Shown one piece after another: positions 18,153 to 55,225 of a DNA stretch of 64,000 nucleotides; the stretch's first letter is position 1, and each line of letters opens with the position of its first letter. The position numbers were made by a program, and so were the translations under genes. The notes under the pieces were generated by a model, which did not search any database, had not been told where the DNA came from, and was given only the letters and a program-made list of their open reading frames with translations. This DNA is from Gigantopelta aegis (lineage: Eukaryota; Mollusca; Gastropoda; Neomphalida; Peltospiridae): the NCBI RefSeq assembly GCF_016097555.1, contig NC_054701.1, positions 36,895,492 through 36,959,491 of the forward strand. The letters are read 5' to 3'.

Positions 18153-21100
18153 GTAAGTTAAATTTTTGATAATATTTTAGTGTAGCCTTTATGAAGTAAA
18201 AAGCCGAGATATGGGTATTAGTTTTCTGAGGGTGGCAACTGGGTCAACTTTTCCTTGAACAGTTTTAACACTAAATTTTCTCATTTAATTCCGTGGAATT
18301 CTTCTTGTATTTATATTTCTCGCCCTGCCTCTATATTAGATAGAGAAATTTGTGTTACGGGTACAGGCACAGCGGAAGCAAGTAGATATTGGTGGGGGGC
18401 GGACTGAGATCAAGGGCACAAAGCACAGTTTCTAGGGGGTTCGGAGGTATGATCCCCATAAATGTTTGAAAACTAGATGTCCTGAAATACAATTTCCCAC
18501 ATTCTACAAGTAAAATTCATATCAGCCTTAAAGGTAGAGTAAACTCAAACAAGAGCTTTATGTGTTGGAAAGATGCATACCCGGATCACCAACACATACT
18601 GACACTTTAACAAATGAAAAACACGTAATTTTAGAGTTAATAAAAAAACCATGATTATTCCTGCTAACTGGGGGCAACCATTTTGTTTAGTTTTTTGTGA
18701 CGACTGGTGTTATAGCTTGGGGTGAAGTGACGTCAGCTCCGTCCATCTGCTCTATGCACAGTGTAAACAAACGTTCTAATTTACGACAAGGCACTTCGCT
18801 TTCATAAACTATTTAATTAAATATATTTCAATTTGCATCAATAGAACGAAATGGAGTTCTAGTATTTTTCTTTTTTTAAAAATCCAAAGAAAACAATGCA
18901 TATTATTATGCCTATTGGTATGCTACGTTCGAGCAAAAACGACCACTTATGATACCCAAGTGATCATTTTCTTTTCTTTGGGACTACGTAATTGGTAAGT
19001 TTTGATGATTTTAGATGGGAAAGTCTACTTAATCAAGGGTTTTACAGAATTACTTACAGTAATAAAGCAGGACGGCTGATCGATTACGATTAGATGGGTG
19101 TCCATGCAGTTAACACACAGTACCCTGTGATCTTAATAAAAGAGGCACAACTTTTTTATTGTGTCTAGACACAGTGTCTGGGAACCATCTAAATATACAT
19201 CTGCCAATCAGGAATCACAGGTACAGGCCACGGAAAGAAAAGATCAATTAAAGGAGGGGACAATTAAGGCATTTGGCCTGGTATGCATATTCAACGATAT
19301 ATAAAGCACATTATTGCTTAATATCAACAAGTATAATCGTATAGTTAATTAATAAAACGGTTAAATGTGACAGCTATTATATATAACGGGCGCAGCCATT
19401 TTGTACCATCTCAGTGAATACGCCCTCTGGCGAGCTAGTGGTTACGTAATACCTAACGTGTCACGTCAGGAATTAGTTTTCGAAATGAAACAAAACATAC
19501 CTGATTTTTGCAGATGCGTCGCAGTGTTCTGTAATTATATCCATCCTAGTAAGCCAGCACCAATTATATACTATTTTTTAATACAAAATAAACCACCATT
19601 GTCAAAGTGTTGAAATAACTGTATTATGTTTTGTACATAAATTAACCCACGTACTGAAACAATAATCGGAGTGTTTTCTTGGTTAATTGGTCTTTTCTTT
19701 CTGTGGCCTTTCTGTGGTTCCTGATTGGCAGGTGTATATTCAGACGGTCCCCAGACACTGTCTAGACACACTAAAAAGACGTGCCTCTTTTATGAAGATC
19801 ACAGGATATTGTGTGATAACAGCACGGATACACCTAAAATCATAATGGACATTACCAACCGCCCTGCTTTATTACTGTAAGTAATTCTGTAAAACCCTGG
19901 ATTAAGTAGACTTTCCCATCTAAAATCACAAAACTGACCAATTATGTCGTCCCAAAGAAAAGAAAAGTACATGTATCATTTGGGTATCGTGAATGGTAGT
20001 TTTTGCTTGAACATGCCCTACCAATAGGCCTAATAGTATGCATTTTTTTCTTTGGATTTTTAAAAAAAGAAAAATACTATAACTCCATTTCTATTGATGT
20101 AACCTGAAATATATTAAGTTAAATAGTTTATTATACTATCAAGTCATTTATGTTGTTTTACAAGTCAGGTTGATGAAAGCGAAGCGCCTTGTTGTAAATT
20201 AGAGCGTTTGTTTACACTGCATAGAGAAGATGGACAGAGCTGACGTCACTTCGCCCCAAGCTATACCACTGGATGTCACAAAAACGAAACAAAAAGGCTG
20301 CCCCCAGTTAGCACGAATAATCATTGTTTTTTGTTAACTCTAAAATTACGCGTTTTTCATTTGTTAAAGTGTCAGTATGTGTTGGTGGTCTGGGTATGCA
20401 TTTTTCCAACACATAAGGCTCTTGTTTGAGTGACCCTAACTTTAACTAAGAAAACACCATAATACAGTTATTTCAATACTTTGATAATCGTGGTTTATTT
20501 TGTATTAAAAATAATATATAATTGTTGCTGGCTTACTGGGGTGACTATTATTACAGAATATTGCGATGCATCTGCGAACTCCAGGTATGTTTTGTTTCTT
20601 CAGTTCGAAGACTAATTCATGACGTGACACGTTAGGTATTACATATCCACCAGCTCGCCAGAGGGCGTATTCACTGGGATGATACAAAATGGCTGTGCCC
20701 ATTATATATAATAGCTGTCACATTTAACCGTTTTATTAATTAACTATACGATAATACTTGTTGATATTAAGCAATAATGTGCATTATATATCGTTGAATA
20801 TGCATACCAGGTCAAATGCCTTGATTGTCCCTACCTTTAAGATACTACTAAGAATATTTTTTATTCAGAATTATTGCAGGGGCTAGAGCCCCTCCCCGCC
20901 ATGCCTGGGGTAAGCATGTTTAAACAGCCTTTTCCTTTCCATCGTTGAGAATATTGTTCATGTGCACAAATAGCCAAAATTTTGAAGTTAAAATTCTTGT
21001 TTAGGACACATTATTTCCCCACCCATGTAAATTTGGTTTTAATTAACTACCTGGTTTTTGGTGTGGGTTTTTTATTTTTTTATTTGAGTATTTTGCATGT

Positions 21101-25906: not shown

Positions 25907-28900
25907 CCATCTCATAGGCTTATGAGTATAGATATGGCAATTCCAACCTATAGGACAACTTTTTTCTCTCTTTTTTTTGGCAAGGTCCAAGACAGGGCTC
26001 ACCCTGTAGATTGCCAGATTAGCCAGTTGCTAATTTTTATACAATGTGGCAACAAAATTTGTTCCAGTTTGAGTCCTGCTGAGGTTCAACATTGGTCCCA
26101 TAGGTTGGAATTGCCGTATCTACACCACATAATGTTGATTGATTCTTTTTCTTGCCCATTTAATTACGGTAACAAAATATTACTTTTGTTAACTAAGGTT
26201 TGTTTATTCTCGAACAATTCATAAACATTTCATCTACACAATGTTACATGCGAAAATATAGTCCACATTATTCAATAACATAAAAATGTGACAAAACATT
26301 GAAAATATTAATTTATTTTAAGTATTTTTAAAACAATGATTCCACGTGAAATGCAACATGGGGAATAACCGGTAAGTAATTCAACAGAATTCTGAAAACC
26401 ATGAGTTATGGCACCAGTCATCATAAAACATAAGTTATGATGTTGGGCTTATTTAGAAATCATCTAGCCCAAGGGTCAGACAGAGAGAATCTATCATGAG
26501 TGGCTGTTGAAGACAGGGCAATCCCAACCCGAGAGATACAACTGTTTGTCTAACATGAGCCTTGGCGAGTTTCAGACAAAACAGTTGTAACTCAAGGGTT
26601 GGGATTTACCTGTCTTTAACAGCCATGAGTGTTTGATTATTTTTCTTGCATACCTAACTAGTTTTAAAAATACGGAAACAAAGGATCAATAGATTTGTAT
26701 GTCACAGAAAACAACAAGCATCTTAACTGTTGTGATGTAACTTCAACTGCACTGCAATGACATCATTAATTGTTATCAATTTTGCTTTTGTCATTTACGG
26801 CTGGCTTGTGAAGTTGTATTTATGTTTATATTAAATGTTCCACCATATATAGCAGAACCTCCGAAAAATTTATCATAATAGACTGATTAATGTTATAGAT
26901 ATTAATGCAATTATTTGATCAAGATGGCTGGGGAAAAGAAACTTAGTTGCGTAGTTTTGACTAAATGACGTCAGTCTGCGCGTGATACCTGTCTGTCCCT
27001 AGAGAAAGACAGGTCTATCCATCACACTGGAAGTAGATGTATTCAACTGTCTGGTATGCAAGAAAAAATCTATCCCTATGCAAAAGCTGTCTAATTCAGT
27101 CCAGTGGGTCAGAATAAGTGATACGTAATCTTTGTTTAATAACGTCACCACGGGGCATGAAAAGTGTAAATTGTAAACATTTACATACATGTACATGAAA
27201 AGTGTGGATTGATATAAAAATAGTCATATTGGAGTTTATTTGTACAAAGAATTGCAAGCATAACAAAAGATTCCAGTAATTTTTAATTACTTGGTGCAGT
27301 GAAAGTTGAAACAAACTAAAACAAAACAAACCACGACGAAAAAACCAGTGTATACTTATTTGATGCAAAATTACATTTTCTATTCAACACTAGAAATAAA
27401 ACAGGTTTGACTCAGATTAAGTTTATGCACAGCAACATGTTTCTGACAAAATTAAATCAAATTAACCTATTCATTTCAGACTTCAAGAGCTTGTTGGGAG
27501 GTACCTAATGATTTACCGATGTCTTACAATTCAAAAAGAACTTGTTTTGTTATTATTGTGGCTTTTTGTTTCGACTTTTTTAAGAGGATGATTTGTTGTT
27601 GGGTTTTTTGCATATTTTTCACAAGTGGCATGATTTTACTTTTAAAATTACTACAATTACAGTGTAATATATAGAGGATTCATCAAGAGTGTTTTTTAAT
27701 ATGTAAAATCGAATCTATGTTAATTGGTATTTGTCGGTAATATGACGTCATCACGATTAGCACAAATTAGGTTGATGTCACACATTTTAACTAAATCTTT
27801 GAAAACGTTACGCTCAGGTATATACAGGTCTTGTTGGCTTGTAAGCAAATGACCCATCCACAGTAAGACATTGCCTAGAGACCTTGAAATTTGCATACCA
27901 TTATTAACCGGATCAATACACTAAATTATCACATGGGTATATGACATGTATACCATGGGTAAGTTATAGGATAAATAATTTCATATGTCCAATTGTTTGT
28001 TACATGTCAGTATAATTTTAAGCTTGAACATTTTTGCAATATTCGTCATGAACAAAATCAAGGCAAGCTGATTATCACTTTCCTAAAATGTTGCTAGGCA
28101 ATCAATCACATGAAGTTTAAAATATAATATATTTAAAGTTTTATTGCAAAGCAATCAGTTTGCAACTCTCCTTAAACTTTCTAGGTGAGTGTGGAGGGGA
28201 GTGGGAGTGATCACTTGCCTTTCATGGTGAAATCTCTTTCTGTGTTGTGTTTGAATTATGGTTCTTGAGTTTAGTTTTTCATGCTTTTTATATTATTCAT
28301 AGTTATTTGATGTTTGATATATAATTTAATTAGGTAGGGTGGGGTTGCCTTAGTTTTCTGACTATTACCCATTCACATTTGACAGCCAAGTCAGTTAAAG
28401 TAGTCCTTTATTTTCAACTTATTTCTGTGCTTATATCCAATTATACGGTTCAAGCACGCTGTCCTGGGCACACACCACAGCTGTCTGGGCTGTCTGTCCA
28501 GGACAGTGGGTTAGTTGTTTGTGGTTAATGAGATTTCCCTTGACATTTGTCCAGTAAAACCCCATTGAGATAAGCTGAATTTGTTGGCTTACGGGTACTT
28601 GGTTCTCTTACAACAGTGGGTGGTTTTTGTGTTTAGAACTTAGATTTTTGCATGAAATAGTCATTTCTACACAGCTAGTCACATAAACATTTTGCTTCTG
28701 AGTGTACGTCACCTACAGATTTATCCAGCACTTCACAATATTAAACAAATTCAAATCATACAAGGAAGCATGTAAATGCTTACTTTATTTTTTTAAGATG
28801 TCACAAACATTCTTCATTGCTTTTGAGAAATGAGTATTTAAAAATATTTCAGAACATAGGTTTTATATTTAGTGTTTTCAAGAATTTTTATGTTCTTATT

Positions 28901-51350: not shown

Positions 51351-51687
51351 CCTTAAAAATGATACAAATGAATGAATACATGTGTAACAACACCCCAGTA
51401 CAAAAATAGAGATTGGCTGTTGGGTGTCAAACAAAGTACATCAGTATGATTATTTCCATTACAAATAAAAATTGTATAATTATGTAAAACAGTGTAAACA
51501 GCTGTGGGAAATGTACAATTGAATGAATGAATGAATGAACAAACAAACAAGCACACACATCACTTGTAGTTCAAAATGTACAAATACATTATTATCCATC
51601 TATAACATTCCCTTCCTCCATATTGAATAAGATCTGTCAGTGCAGTTTCCAACCAAAATAACATAAAACATGTGATATAAACACCAA

Positions 51688-51935
51688 AAAAAGAAAAATG
51701 TTTTATTTATCAACGCACTCCACATTTTATTTACGGTTATATACACATATTGAGAGAGGAAACCTGCTGTCGCCACTTCATGGGCTACTCTTTTCGATTA
51801 GCAGCAAAGGATATTTTATATGCACCATCCCACAGACAGGGTAGTACATACCACGATATGCCAGTCGTGATGCACTGAATGGACCCACCGACCGATCGAG
51901 CGAGTGCTGTACCACTGGGCTACGTCCCGCCCCTT
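51688..51935 (-). mobile_element. SINE, head H2 + tail T1, shortened
   Basis: Minus strand: the head at the right (GGCTACGTCCCGCCCC inverted) lacks some body, and the T1 tail is at the left (AAATGTTTTATTTATCAACG). Near-matching flanks TAAACACCAAA and TAAATACCAAA suggest an 11-bp duplication with one change. Confidence 0.8.
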
Positions 51936-52345
51936 AAATACCAAACGTGAAATTGATCATGTTTGTTGTATCACATTTTGTGACAACTTATACAGAATTA
52001 ACACAATCAGGGTTTCTGCCAGAGGGTAAAACGGGCATGGTGCCATACCCGAATGTTTTGGCAGATTTTATTGTATTAAAGTTTAAAATTAATTACTCTA
52101 TCATTACTGTATGTTTTTCTTAAAGTGCTGTTCCAGATGTATGATGTATTGAGCTATATCAATCAAGATATTATTTAATATGATTACCAAAAAAAAAAAA
52201 AAAATGTAAACAAATTATATACCGGTATATTTTCCATTTAAAAATATTCCCCTGAAAAACAGAACAAGCTGAATTCGTTTTGGGAATTTCCGTAAGATTT
52301 GATCCGTGACGTCACGAAGGGAACTCCTTTCGATAGTCGGCGCCA

Positions 52346-52680
52346 TTGTTCATTGCTTCTTTTGTGTTTATTGCGGTTAAACGGCTGGTTGTTGGCGGCT
52401 GTAGCAATACAAAAGTCGATAAATTTAGTCTCCACGCATTTGCTAGTAATGTTGCTGTGAGAAAGCTGTGTGTGAATTTGATTAAAACAACGTGGAAATA
52501 CTGGACAGGAAGAAAATGCCGGAGACCTTTGCGACAGCAGACACTTTAGTCTCGATTCGTCCGAACTGGCTTGTCGGCTTAAGCGAGATATGGGAATACC
52601 ATGTGTTAGTGCTTTTAAAAAAAGCTGCCGTATCAACAATTTTTCTGCAACACAAAACAAATGACAACAAGCCGACACCA
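52346..52680 (+). pseudogene. THAP-like zinc finger remnant
   Basis: From ATG 52346 the frame reads ...KRLVVGGCSNTKVDKFSLHA...VRKLCVNLIKTTWKYW up to a stop at 52547-52549. VVGGCSNT, SLHAF and the spaced KTTW/W residues match the first half of the THAP DNA-binding domain. The expected first cysteine position holds Leu, and the C-terminal C..HF part appears in another frame (LCDSRHF), with KKAAVSTIF, like the AVPTIF signature, in a third. So the gene has at least two frame changes. THAP domains occur in host transcription factors and in transposases; the location favours the latter. Confidence 0.55.
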
Positions 52681-53623
52681 TCCACACCGATACGACCTTG
52701 AGGTGTATATTGTCCCAAATGTCCCAAATGTCCCAAATTGCGTTATGCTTTCAACTCCGGTCAGTTTGTTTTCTCATGCACAGTTCGTGCAATCATCGAG
52801 ATCCGATTTGTTGTCATTTGCATCTAGTTCCATCCAGCGAAAATAAATTATAATTTAGTTAATCTACAAACCTGTAACACACTTAGATCACGTTTTTATC
52901 AAATGGAGTGAAAAAGCAGGTTTTATATCGATAAATACCATGGGAATCCCCGTGTCCCAATTGCTTGAAATAATTTTGAAAGTTAGTATTCTGATGTCAC
53001 CGGTAGAAGCACAACAATGCCTACGTCACGACAAATTTCACAGACTTGGGGTGCGTTCGTTTCACCTCTCCTGGACATGTTCCAACTGTTCTGTCCTGGT
53101 CGTATCCCCTCTCCAGATATCGTAAGGCTTAGCAAAATTATTGGTTTTAAGGGTTTGTAACGTTTTGTATTGAGACACTTACTTGTCTGAACTTTATTGT
53201 TACTGAAAATGTTCACGTACTGTGAAGAAAAATCTCACAAATGAACAACAACAAATCGGATCTTTATTGCACGAACCGTGCACGAGAAAACAAACCGAAC
53301 CAAAATGATAACAGTCACGTGATATACCAACGTCTGTGACATTAAAAATAGATTGGACCTCGCTTGCTTAACGGTTTTTTCTCGACAACACGTTTTGTGA
53401 AAAAATGCATTTCGTGGTTTTACAAACATCAGGATTACCAAAAAGCACTTCAGGTGAATGGAAATGTGTATTCTAAATAATAAAATGTAAGTAAAGTGCA
53501 ATTTTATTTGTGAAAAATGGGGTTTAATAGCGAAAAACAACGCCGTAATGGTTAACAAATAAACGTAACTAGGGTGTGTCCCTTTAAAACAATAAAGTAC
53601 AGACAAGTAAGTATCTATAGCCT

Positions 53624-54096
53624 TGTCCGTCCCATCCTACAAAAATGTAGGGGTTTTTTGTAAAAAAAAAAGAAAGAAGAAAATACATTAAATTAATTTT
53701 ACTATACCTTCCCACAGAGAAAACCTTTTTTCATACTATGGAATGTGCTATAAGTTATTTATTTCTGAGCAGACTGTTTTCACAGCTGCACACAAAAAAT
53801 AGTATTGTTTTGTTATTTCCAAAACACTTACTTTTTTTTTTACGTCAAACTAAACTGAAATTATTTACACAAAAAAAAACATCTTCATAGATGGATGGGA
53901 CGGACTAAACGTCGTTTTTGTTTATTTTTTAAAATTAAAATAAGTTATTTATTTCTGAGCAGACTGTTTTCACAACTGCACACAAAAAATAGTATTGTTT
54001 TGTTATTTCCAAAACATTTTTTTTTTTTTTTTTACGTCAAACTAAACTGAAGTTATTCACAAAAAAACCCATCTTCATAGAGGGATGGGACAGACT
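53624..54096. mobile_element. Small MITE with inverted TTAGTCCGTCCCATCC-like ends
   Basis: TGTCCGTCCCATCC at the left; GGATGGGACGGACT at 53893-53906 and GGATGGGACAGACT at 54083-54096 at the right, because the right half was duplicated. Non-coding. Confidence 0.6.
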
Positions 54097-54126
54097 AAAA
54101 GTCGTTTTTGTTTATTTCTTAAAATT
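53751..54126. repeat. Tandem duplication, 190 bp, two copies
   Basis: TAAGTTATTTATTTCTGAGC starts both copies (53751, 53941), and they differ by few substitutions and A/T-run lengths. It carries the right end of the MITE. Confidence 0.9.
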
Positions 54127-54229
54127 ACCGATATCGGGTCCACTTGACTCGTAGAGTTCAAGAGTTATTTATCGTCTTTTCTACTACATCACAAGTATTG
54201 GAATATACAGTGTAGCAAAATAATTCGCA

Positions 54230-54467
54230 CGAAAAGCTAAAGAACAAAACAAGAATAAAAGTTGTAAATTAGTGGTAAGCTGTCTCCACGACCATTTTCA
54301 TCGTCATCTATCAGGCCAGGTTCAAACTGATAAGGCATTATTTGTTGTGTTGCACAAATATTAGTCCAGTCGTCATTACTACACTATTCATCATCTAAAG
54401 AAGAATCGCATGATCAGTGAGCTTGGCAGTCGCTGTCGGTCCCACTTTCGCTTGCACTGGAAGTCAT
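54230..54467 (-). pseudogene. Protein remnant resembling N-termini of mollusc P2X7-tail-like proteins
   Basis: Minus strand: MTSSASESGTDSDCQAH from 54467, then, after a stop, DDWTNICATQQIMPYQFEP and an acidic stretch. Ser/Asp-rich starts followed by a PYQFEP-type motif are familiar to me from the expanded mollusc proteins annotated as P2X purinoceptor 7-like; no Cys/His zinc module of that family is visible here. The assignment is weak. Confidence 0.25.
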
Positions 54468-54837
54468 CTCGTGGTAGGTTTCAGTGAAGCGCATTCCCTT
54501 CGTGACGTCACGGCCATTTACAGGCAAATGTTTTTACCGAGAATTTTACTCGGTCGTTTCCGGCAGTGTTCTACGGGAGTGATGTTTTAATACTTTTATG
54601 GGGCATTTTCGTAATTATTGATTTACATATCGGTTTAAAATATTATTGCAATGAATTAAGAAAGCATTTAATTATGGAATTTGAAATTTTAGTGTATGGT
54701 CTGGCACAGCACTTTAACCCTAACCATAAACTTAACCCATTTTCTTTCTGGGAGAGGCCCCCATACCCCCCTGTTTACTGGTTGCATTCAATTCCATAGC
54801 TCCATATCCAAAAACACTGACAATGTGCACTTTCAGA

Positions 54838-55225
54838 AAGAAAGAAAGAAATGTTTTTATTTAACGACGCACTCAACACATTTTATTTACGGTTATATGG
54901 CGTCAGACATATGGGTAAGTACCACAACATTTTTGAGAGGAAACCAGCTGTCGCCATTACATGGGCTACTCTTCCGATTAGCAGCAAGGGATCTTTTATT
55001 TGTGCTTCCCACAGGCAGGATAGCACAAACCATGGCCTTTGTTGAACCAGTTATGGATCACTGGTCGGTGCAAGTGGTTTACACCTACCCATTGAGCCTT
55101 GCGGAGCACTCATTCAGGGTTTGGAGTCAGTATTTGGATTAAAAATCCCATGCCTCGACTGGGATCCGAACCCAGTACCTACCAGCCTGTAGACCGATGA
55201 CCAACCACGATGCCACCGAGGCCGG
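54838..55225 (-). mobile_element. SINE, head H1 + tail T1
   Basis: Full-length minus copy with the perfect 14-bp duplication TGTGCACTTTCAGA (54824-54837, 55226-55239). Box B-like GGGTTCGGATCCC is intact. It is young. Confidence 0.9.

Follow-up and report, generated by a model that had tools for sequence, protein, structure and literature searches.

The 64-kb window, that is, the whole stretch of DNA analysed, contains at positions 52120-54717 a complete element bounded by TTAA. One unstranded target-site copy lies on the left (52120-52123), read in the sequence and through empty sites with one TTAA, and another on the right (54714-54717). Within these limits are found 14-bp terminal inverted repeats, AGTGCTGTTCCAGA on the plus strand (52124-52137), which provides a 5'-AG end, and AGTGCTGTGCCAGA on the minus strand (54700-54713), identical at 13 of the 14 positions; the outer edges of this copy read TTAA-AGTGCTGTTCCAGA at the start and TCTGGCACAGCACT-TTAA at the finish. 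Further inside, a 20-bp block, CCGTGACGTCACGAAGGGAA, lies on the plus strand at 52304-52323 and is repeated in inverted orientation, with 20/20 identity, on the minus strand at 54494-54513. Each block includes the palindromic octamer TGACGTCA (52307-52314 and 54503-54510), the general CREB/ATF consensus or CRE, starting 188 bases from the left and 208 bases from the right end of the element. The initial annotation had described a mobile element with these limits and TTAA flanks, carrying about 200 bp inside each 14-bp terminal repeat the same inverted block with a palindromic CRE, a description which is borne out by these positions and, as regards mobility, by the empty sites and repeated ends described below. 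The block occurs only twice in the 64 kb with up to three mismatches allowed, 100 shuffles giving an expectation of 0.00. The bare octamer was found seven times in the window, five of them outside the element, and six times in 74,862 bases of other flanks. Since it is not rare in the window, the octamer by itself constitutes weak evidence, and the weight rests on the mirrored 20-bp block, its placement and its recurrence in a diverged family.

Downstream of the left block lies what remains of a Kolobok transposase THAP exon (52376-52700, plus strand), recognized by its alignment to the open THAP exon of a relative on C3 and split over three frames, with VKRLVVGGCSN from 52376, HFSLDSS from 52542 and AAVSTIF from 52624, the last being similar to the AVPTIF box. 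Facing it, next to the right block, is a first-exon remnant of KolX which contains stops (54318-54467, minus strand) and the peptide MTSSASESGTDSDCQA...PYQFEP, with PYQFEP at 54335-54318; its homologue is open in the relatives on C3 and C9. These are the THAP-like frame and the second, facing protein remnant that had been noticed beside the blocks. Both frames are broken by stops and frameshifts, not only in the window copy but in the majority of the 25 copies under comparison, two stop contexts being each present in 23 of the 25 and one frameshift context in 22, while a full-length copy on C9 has none of them. Since the lesions are shared, the 2-kb family was presumably amplified with dead genes and would have to be moved in trans. 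The initial annotation also had the blocks driving two facing genes: facing genes do exist in the full-length relatives, but the frames of the window copy are broken, and for this reason the expression applies to those relatives only, the driving itself being a putative role. No Pfam match was obtained for the THAP piece of the window, only one at E 0.075 for the piece of a sibling copy, and none for the KolX N-terminal pieces or that exon alone. The family was assigned through the C3 and C9 relatives.

The span 52120-54717 had been taken as one unit, but positions 52824-53587 (no strand assigned) are occupied by a distinct TTAA element, from a different family, nested in the first. Its right end is intact, with TTAA at 53584-53587, whereas on the left, by our reading, the outermost 11 bp are missing along with their TTAA and about 33 bp of the host element. 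Of the 25 aligned rows, 24 show the TTAA site of this insertion uninserted; the one exception is the window copy. Other copies of the nested element were read at 27 loci (L004-L030), to which the 764-bp core in the window is 97-98% identical, with the left end TTAA-AGCCGC(A/G)C(A/G)CC in 26 of them and the right end, reading inward, TTAA-AGGGACACAC in all 27. This is, in fact, a TTAA family with the 5'-AG ends AGCCGCACACC and AGGGACACACC. A part of 51-54 bp is, when inverted, 87% similar to the interior of the host element. TACGTCAC is also present in the nested element, about 210 bp in from the left.

The mobility of the host family was assessed genome-wide. The end pattern AGTGCTGTNCCAGA, in which TTAA was not required, occurs 762 times (395 + 367), against 12 for the reversed-pattern control, and TTAA precedes 682 of these ends (348 + 334), the control giving 0. 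A search for empty sites produced 42 rows where the joined flanks match uninserted sequence, from which 12 hand-picked pairs led to 17 inspected alignments, one of them belonging to the family of the nested element and not to that of the host. A single TTAA is seen at the junction in 15 of these 17, including three for the window copy, and CTGA or TCAA in the remaining two. In addition, 33 loci (30 distinct) were read, with both ends present in 27 rows corresponding to 26 distinct copies including that of the window: 24 measure 1.65-1.97 kb, the window copy 2.59 kb and L047 0.78 kb. For the 25-copy alignment L047 was omitted for its large internal deletion, and L045, which duplicates L002, was excluded. 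The aligned copies were chosen by similarity to the right end of the window element and delimited with a pattern that contained TTAA, so that TTAA in this set is there by construction, and the independent proof of the target is provided by the empty sites. By hand count of the rows, the octamer is intact on the left in 23 and on the right in 22 of the 25 copies. The initial annotation had made its description depend on ends and blocks being kept between copies, and both are kept among the relatives read. The window element is a member of a mobile family with a TTAA target.

The connection with full-length relatives came from a genome-wide search for THAP and the P2X7 C-terminal domain. The two lie on facing strands, about 8 kb apart, at one locus on C3 and another on C4. 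The ends of the window family are found in the C3 copy (L064+L065) and in a further one on C9 (L068+L069). The C9 relative is complete, measuring 9,286 bp when both TTAA copies are counted, with identical inverted ends, an open THAP frame of 143 codons, core frames with GGDGRCDSPG, VTDRHPQ and FDVWH (FDVGH in the C3 relative), and KolX frames on the strand opposite the exons of the THAP, and probably DDE, transposase. Aligned stretches of the two copies are 95.3-99.5% identical, and the right terminus of the C3 copy is cut off inside the terminal repeat. In Pfam, the C3 copy matches THAP (PF05485, 4e-14), with a DAVPTIF box present, and, on the strand facing the transposase, P2RX7_C (PF20478, 1.3e-13); the core frames of the relatives gave no meaningful match to a Pfam model, and the last catalytic E was not placed in them. 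The KolX N-terminal exon and the ballast exon probably form one gene. Compared with the C3 and C9 copies, the window copy shows about 81% identity along the left 570 columns, and CCGTGACGTCATGAAGGGAA is present at both ends of each of these two copies, before each gene.

These characteristics correspond to those of a described group. In the accessible text of PMC9587614, Kolobok elements have a TTAA target, 5'-RR/YY-3' ends and a C/DxxH motif, and the Kol0 group combines the transposase with KolX, a protein with the P2X7 ballast fold, proposed there as the source of the P2X7 ballast domain by domestication; a Kolobok THAP domain with an AVPTIF box is described in the corresponding text of PMC6004289. 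The duplication of TTAA is evident here from the empty sites and 682 of 762 ends, the termini are AG...CT in the window copy and its relatives, and the C3 copy holds both a THAP domain with the AVPTIF box and the second protein, KolX. Since the clearly answered membership features are those of the group, the window element is a new family of the Kol0 group of the Kolobok superfamily and not a new superfamily. The statement in the initial annotation that it matches no known plan was mistaken, since TTAA, 5'-AG ends and a THAP-DDE transposase plus KolX make up precisely the Kol0 plan. In fact, Kol0 elements of the Kolobok-1_XT type share with it the TTAA, the 5'-AG ends, the THAP exon and a KolX with the P2X7 ballast domain, and probably also the DDE-type exons with DxxH. 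No subterminal CRE blocks appear in the Kol0 literature, as far as the accessible text of PMC9587614 and PMC6004289 goes, where the word promoter occurs 0 times. The XKol elements and T2-MITEs of Xenopus are alike in TTAA, AG termini, the THAP domain with the AVPTIF box and the existence of non-autonomous derivatives (PMC6004289), but differ in their terminal sequences, and KolX occurs 0 times in the accessible main text of that work. KolobokP, described from this same vent snail, Gigantopelta aegis, belongs to the same superfamily but is characterized by long terminal direct repeats together with a His-Me nuclease (PMC9587614, accessible text). Terminal direct repeats of about 450 or 660 bp are absent from the 260-bp ends of the C9 copy, which have in common just the terminal repeat, the CRE block and some matches no longer than 13 bp.

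Membership in another TTAA or THAP superfamily, that is, piggyBac, P or ISL2EU, is hardly conceivable. THAP is carried by P elements too and, according to the initial annotation, by ISL2EU, which it also sets apart by a different target site, but the 5'-AG ends together with KolX fit Kolobok. P and THAP9 elements are not known to carry KolX. Zebrafish THAP9 and P elements do resemble the present family in their THAP transposase and in their terminal and subterminal inverted repeats, but duplicate 8 bp of target (PMC7776569, accessible text), whereas the target here is TTAA. As for piggyBac, it also targets TTAA, but 5'-RR ends separate Kolobok from it (PMC9587614, accessible text), and in place of the other termini of piggyBac the ends found here are AG.

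In the full-length type, of about 9.3 kb, the transposase reads inward from the left and KolX inward from the right. Each gene begins a little way inside its CRE block, the two blocks being identical, inverted and some 190-210 bp from the ends. The block is present at both ends of the window copy, of most 2-kb relatives read and of both relatives of the full-length type. We give a probability of roughly 65% to the reading of the window copy as a non-autonomous Kol0 Kolobok transposon whose blocks are matched promoters of the transposase and of KolX. Each end would then act as an inward promoter with the CRE at its core, the left one driving the transposase and the right one KolX, and both genes would be switched on together through host factors of the CREB/ATF type. 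The transposase would act on the terminal repeats of its own element and on those of shorter copies, and the 2-kb copies would be moved in trans by the enzyme of a full-length element. The order of exons and blocks is established, and promoter action and co-expression are what this order suggests.

The layout recurs in a second family, B, with ends TTAA-AGGATTTGTGAACAG, for which 56 end matches were found with at most two mismatches (control 0). One copy of it (L070+L078), of 1,493 bp, shows on its left an open frame for THAP, on its right a KolX start, IQPYQFEP, and TGACGTCA at 187 and 189 bp from its ends, within a common 16-bp inverted block. Its THAP domain is 30% identical to that of the window family's relative, and, once the octamer is left out, the best match between the ends of B and those of the window family (A) is an AT-rich stretch of 19 bp (89%, E 0.03). 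The chance that both ends of B hold the octamer at a nearly equal distance is about 1e-5, calculated with 50-bp windows and the measured background. Within the window, positions 18528-20445 are likewise bounded by TTAA, with mirrored halves and ends AGGTAGAGT.../AGTTAGGGT..., and hold TGACGTCA at 18728 and 20241, 201 and 198 from the ends; having been read by eye, without an open frame above 80 codons and with ends that the end-finding script did not list, this is a candidate element only. Two more copies of TGACGTCA lie at 26966 and 27743 of the window, 777 bp apart, and the script search found no TTAA inverted ends around them.

The symmetry of these ends may have another origin. The mirrored block could be a subterminal inverted repeat bound by the transposase, perhaps through its THAP domain, either to pair the ends or to enhance transposition, its position upstream of a gene being incidental; we regard this, the main alternative, as rather unlikely, while according it some weight. 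Precedents exist in P elements, with their 11-bp repeats, and in zebrafish THAP9 elements, whose repeats measure 12 bp, both types having terminal and subterminal inverted repeats with spacers of about 100 and 400 bp (PMC7776569, accessible text), and the THAP domains of Galileo bind sites within its long terminal inverted repeats (PMC3688188, accessible text). Moreover, when the two ends are compared in families A and B, no inverted match is strong apart from the terminal repeat and the block, the spacing from block to end is almost constant (187-210), and the mirrored stretch at 18528-20445 also has the octamer near both ends. Against the promoter reading, 16-21 bp around the octamer are repeated at both ends in each family, more than a transcription factor site needs. 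Nevertheless, a binding site that co-evolves with its protein is expected to drift, and between A and B, with THAP domains only 30% identical, the octamer is unchanged while the letters that flank it differ; it is, besides, the sequence to which CREB/ATF factors bind in general. The promoter reading better explains why diverged families share the bare octamer and not its neighbours, and the subterminal repeat better explains the symmetry; the two are not mutually exclusive.

The frequency of this arrangement was estimated among 150 listed THAP matches, of which the surroundings of 19 were read: the C3, C9 and C4 loci and 16 stretches chosen by hand to cover the score groups, four of the latter being family B. 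For grouping, L074/L083, L081/L084 and L085/L087 align, and L071-L073 were joined to L070 by eye. Excluding the window family, exact TGACGTCA lies within 170 bp upstream of the THAP match in four of the 11 groups, namely B, C (L074, L083), D (L081, L084) and E (L082). With the local background of 9 per 134 kb, the chance of such a result is about 5e-6, rising to 7e-5 if that rate is doubled and to 5e-5 under a 300-bp limit, figures to be read in the light of a 170-bp limit and a choice of loci fixed by hand after the window family was known. The other seven sampled groups (L075, L076, L077, L085/L087, L086, L088 and the C4 locus L066) have no exact CRE upstream, which speaks against a general rule. 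In L077 TGACGTAG-CTTCCGG, a near-CRE adjacent to an ETS-like site, lies upstream of THAP, and the match in L076 may not be a first exon. The C4 locus (L066/L067, C4:87356000-87371000), a more distant Kolobok-like arrangement of a THAP-type exon and a GDGRCDSPG core facing KolX, lacks an exact CRE over the 1,019 bases that precede THAP; the two CREs of this locus lie elsewhere and may belong to nested copies. L074 has CCGGAAGTGACGTCA.

These counts also bear on a third explanation, which we consider improbable: the block would be a short duplicated stretch, inverted and without present function, that was passed on by descent, and the octamer would have survived by chance. Conservation of the block inside the 2-kb family does not exceed that of the sequence around it, the two copies lying at the 58th and 35th percentiles of 20-bp stretches, although this comparison says little about function. 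Genome-wide, at least 186 of 202 flank-matched copies retain the right CRE, compared with 212 of 263 for a single control segment, a count on which we place no weight, the control not being CpG-matched. CRE octamers are, in addition, fairly common (seven in the 64-kb window), and the exact CRE is absent upstream of THAP in seven of the 11 other groups. Against simple descent, the strongly diverged family B has the octamer at both ends at a similar distance, with the chance of about 1e-5 given above, and the octamer appears again upstream of THAP in four of those 11 groups.

The promoter reading may be extended, as a tentative and still doubtful proposal, to many Kol0-type transposons, which would have mirrored CRE promoters about 185-210 bp inside both ends, selected across diverged families and co-expressing transposase and KolX under CREB/ATF control, plausibly in the germ line. 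A literature search, with most subscription journals and Repbase outside its scope, found no CRE reported in Kolobok transposons, nor, within that scope, the CRE layout as a repeated feature. As a Kolobok family the element is new but unremarkable; its layout is possibly more important. If diverged Kol0 families do share CRE blocks at both ends, these would give a handle on the expression of such transposons and would bear on why KolX stays beside the transposase. A regulatory sequence might also accompany a domesticated KolX-type exon, as in the origin proposed for P2X7 (PMC9587614, accessible text). Furthermore, non-autonomous copies would scatter ready-made CREB sites, at least 186 flank-matched right blocks having an intact octamer.

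A total of 24 KolX/P2X7-ballast matches were found in the genome, some of which may be domesticated KolX genes. Three of them, L061-L063, show none of the ends of the window family. As regards the surroundings of the element, a repeat resembling TTTATTTAACGACGCACTCAACACATTTTATTTACGG has copies at 54837-54919 and 51686-51742 of the window, and L056, another copy of the host family, is inserted at a TTAA within a TTTATTTAACGACGCACTCAACACATTTTATTTACGG-like repeat.
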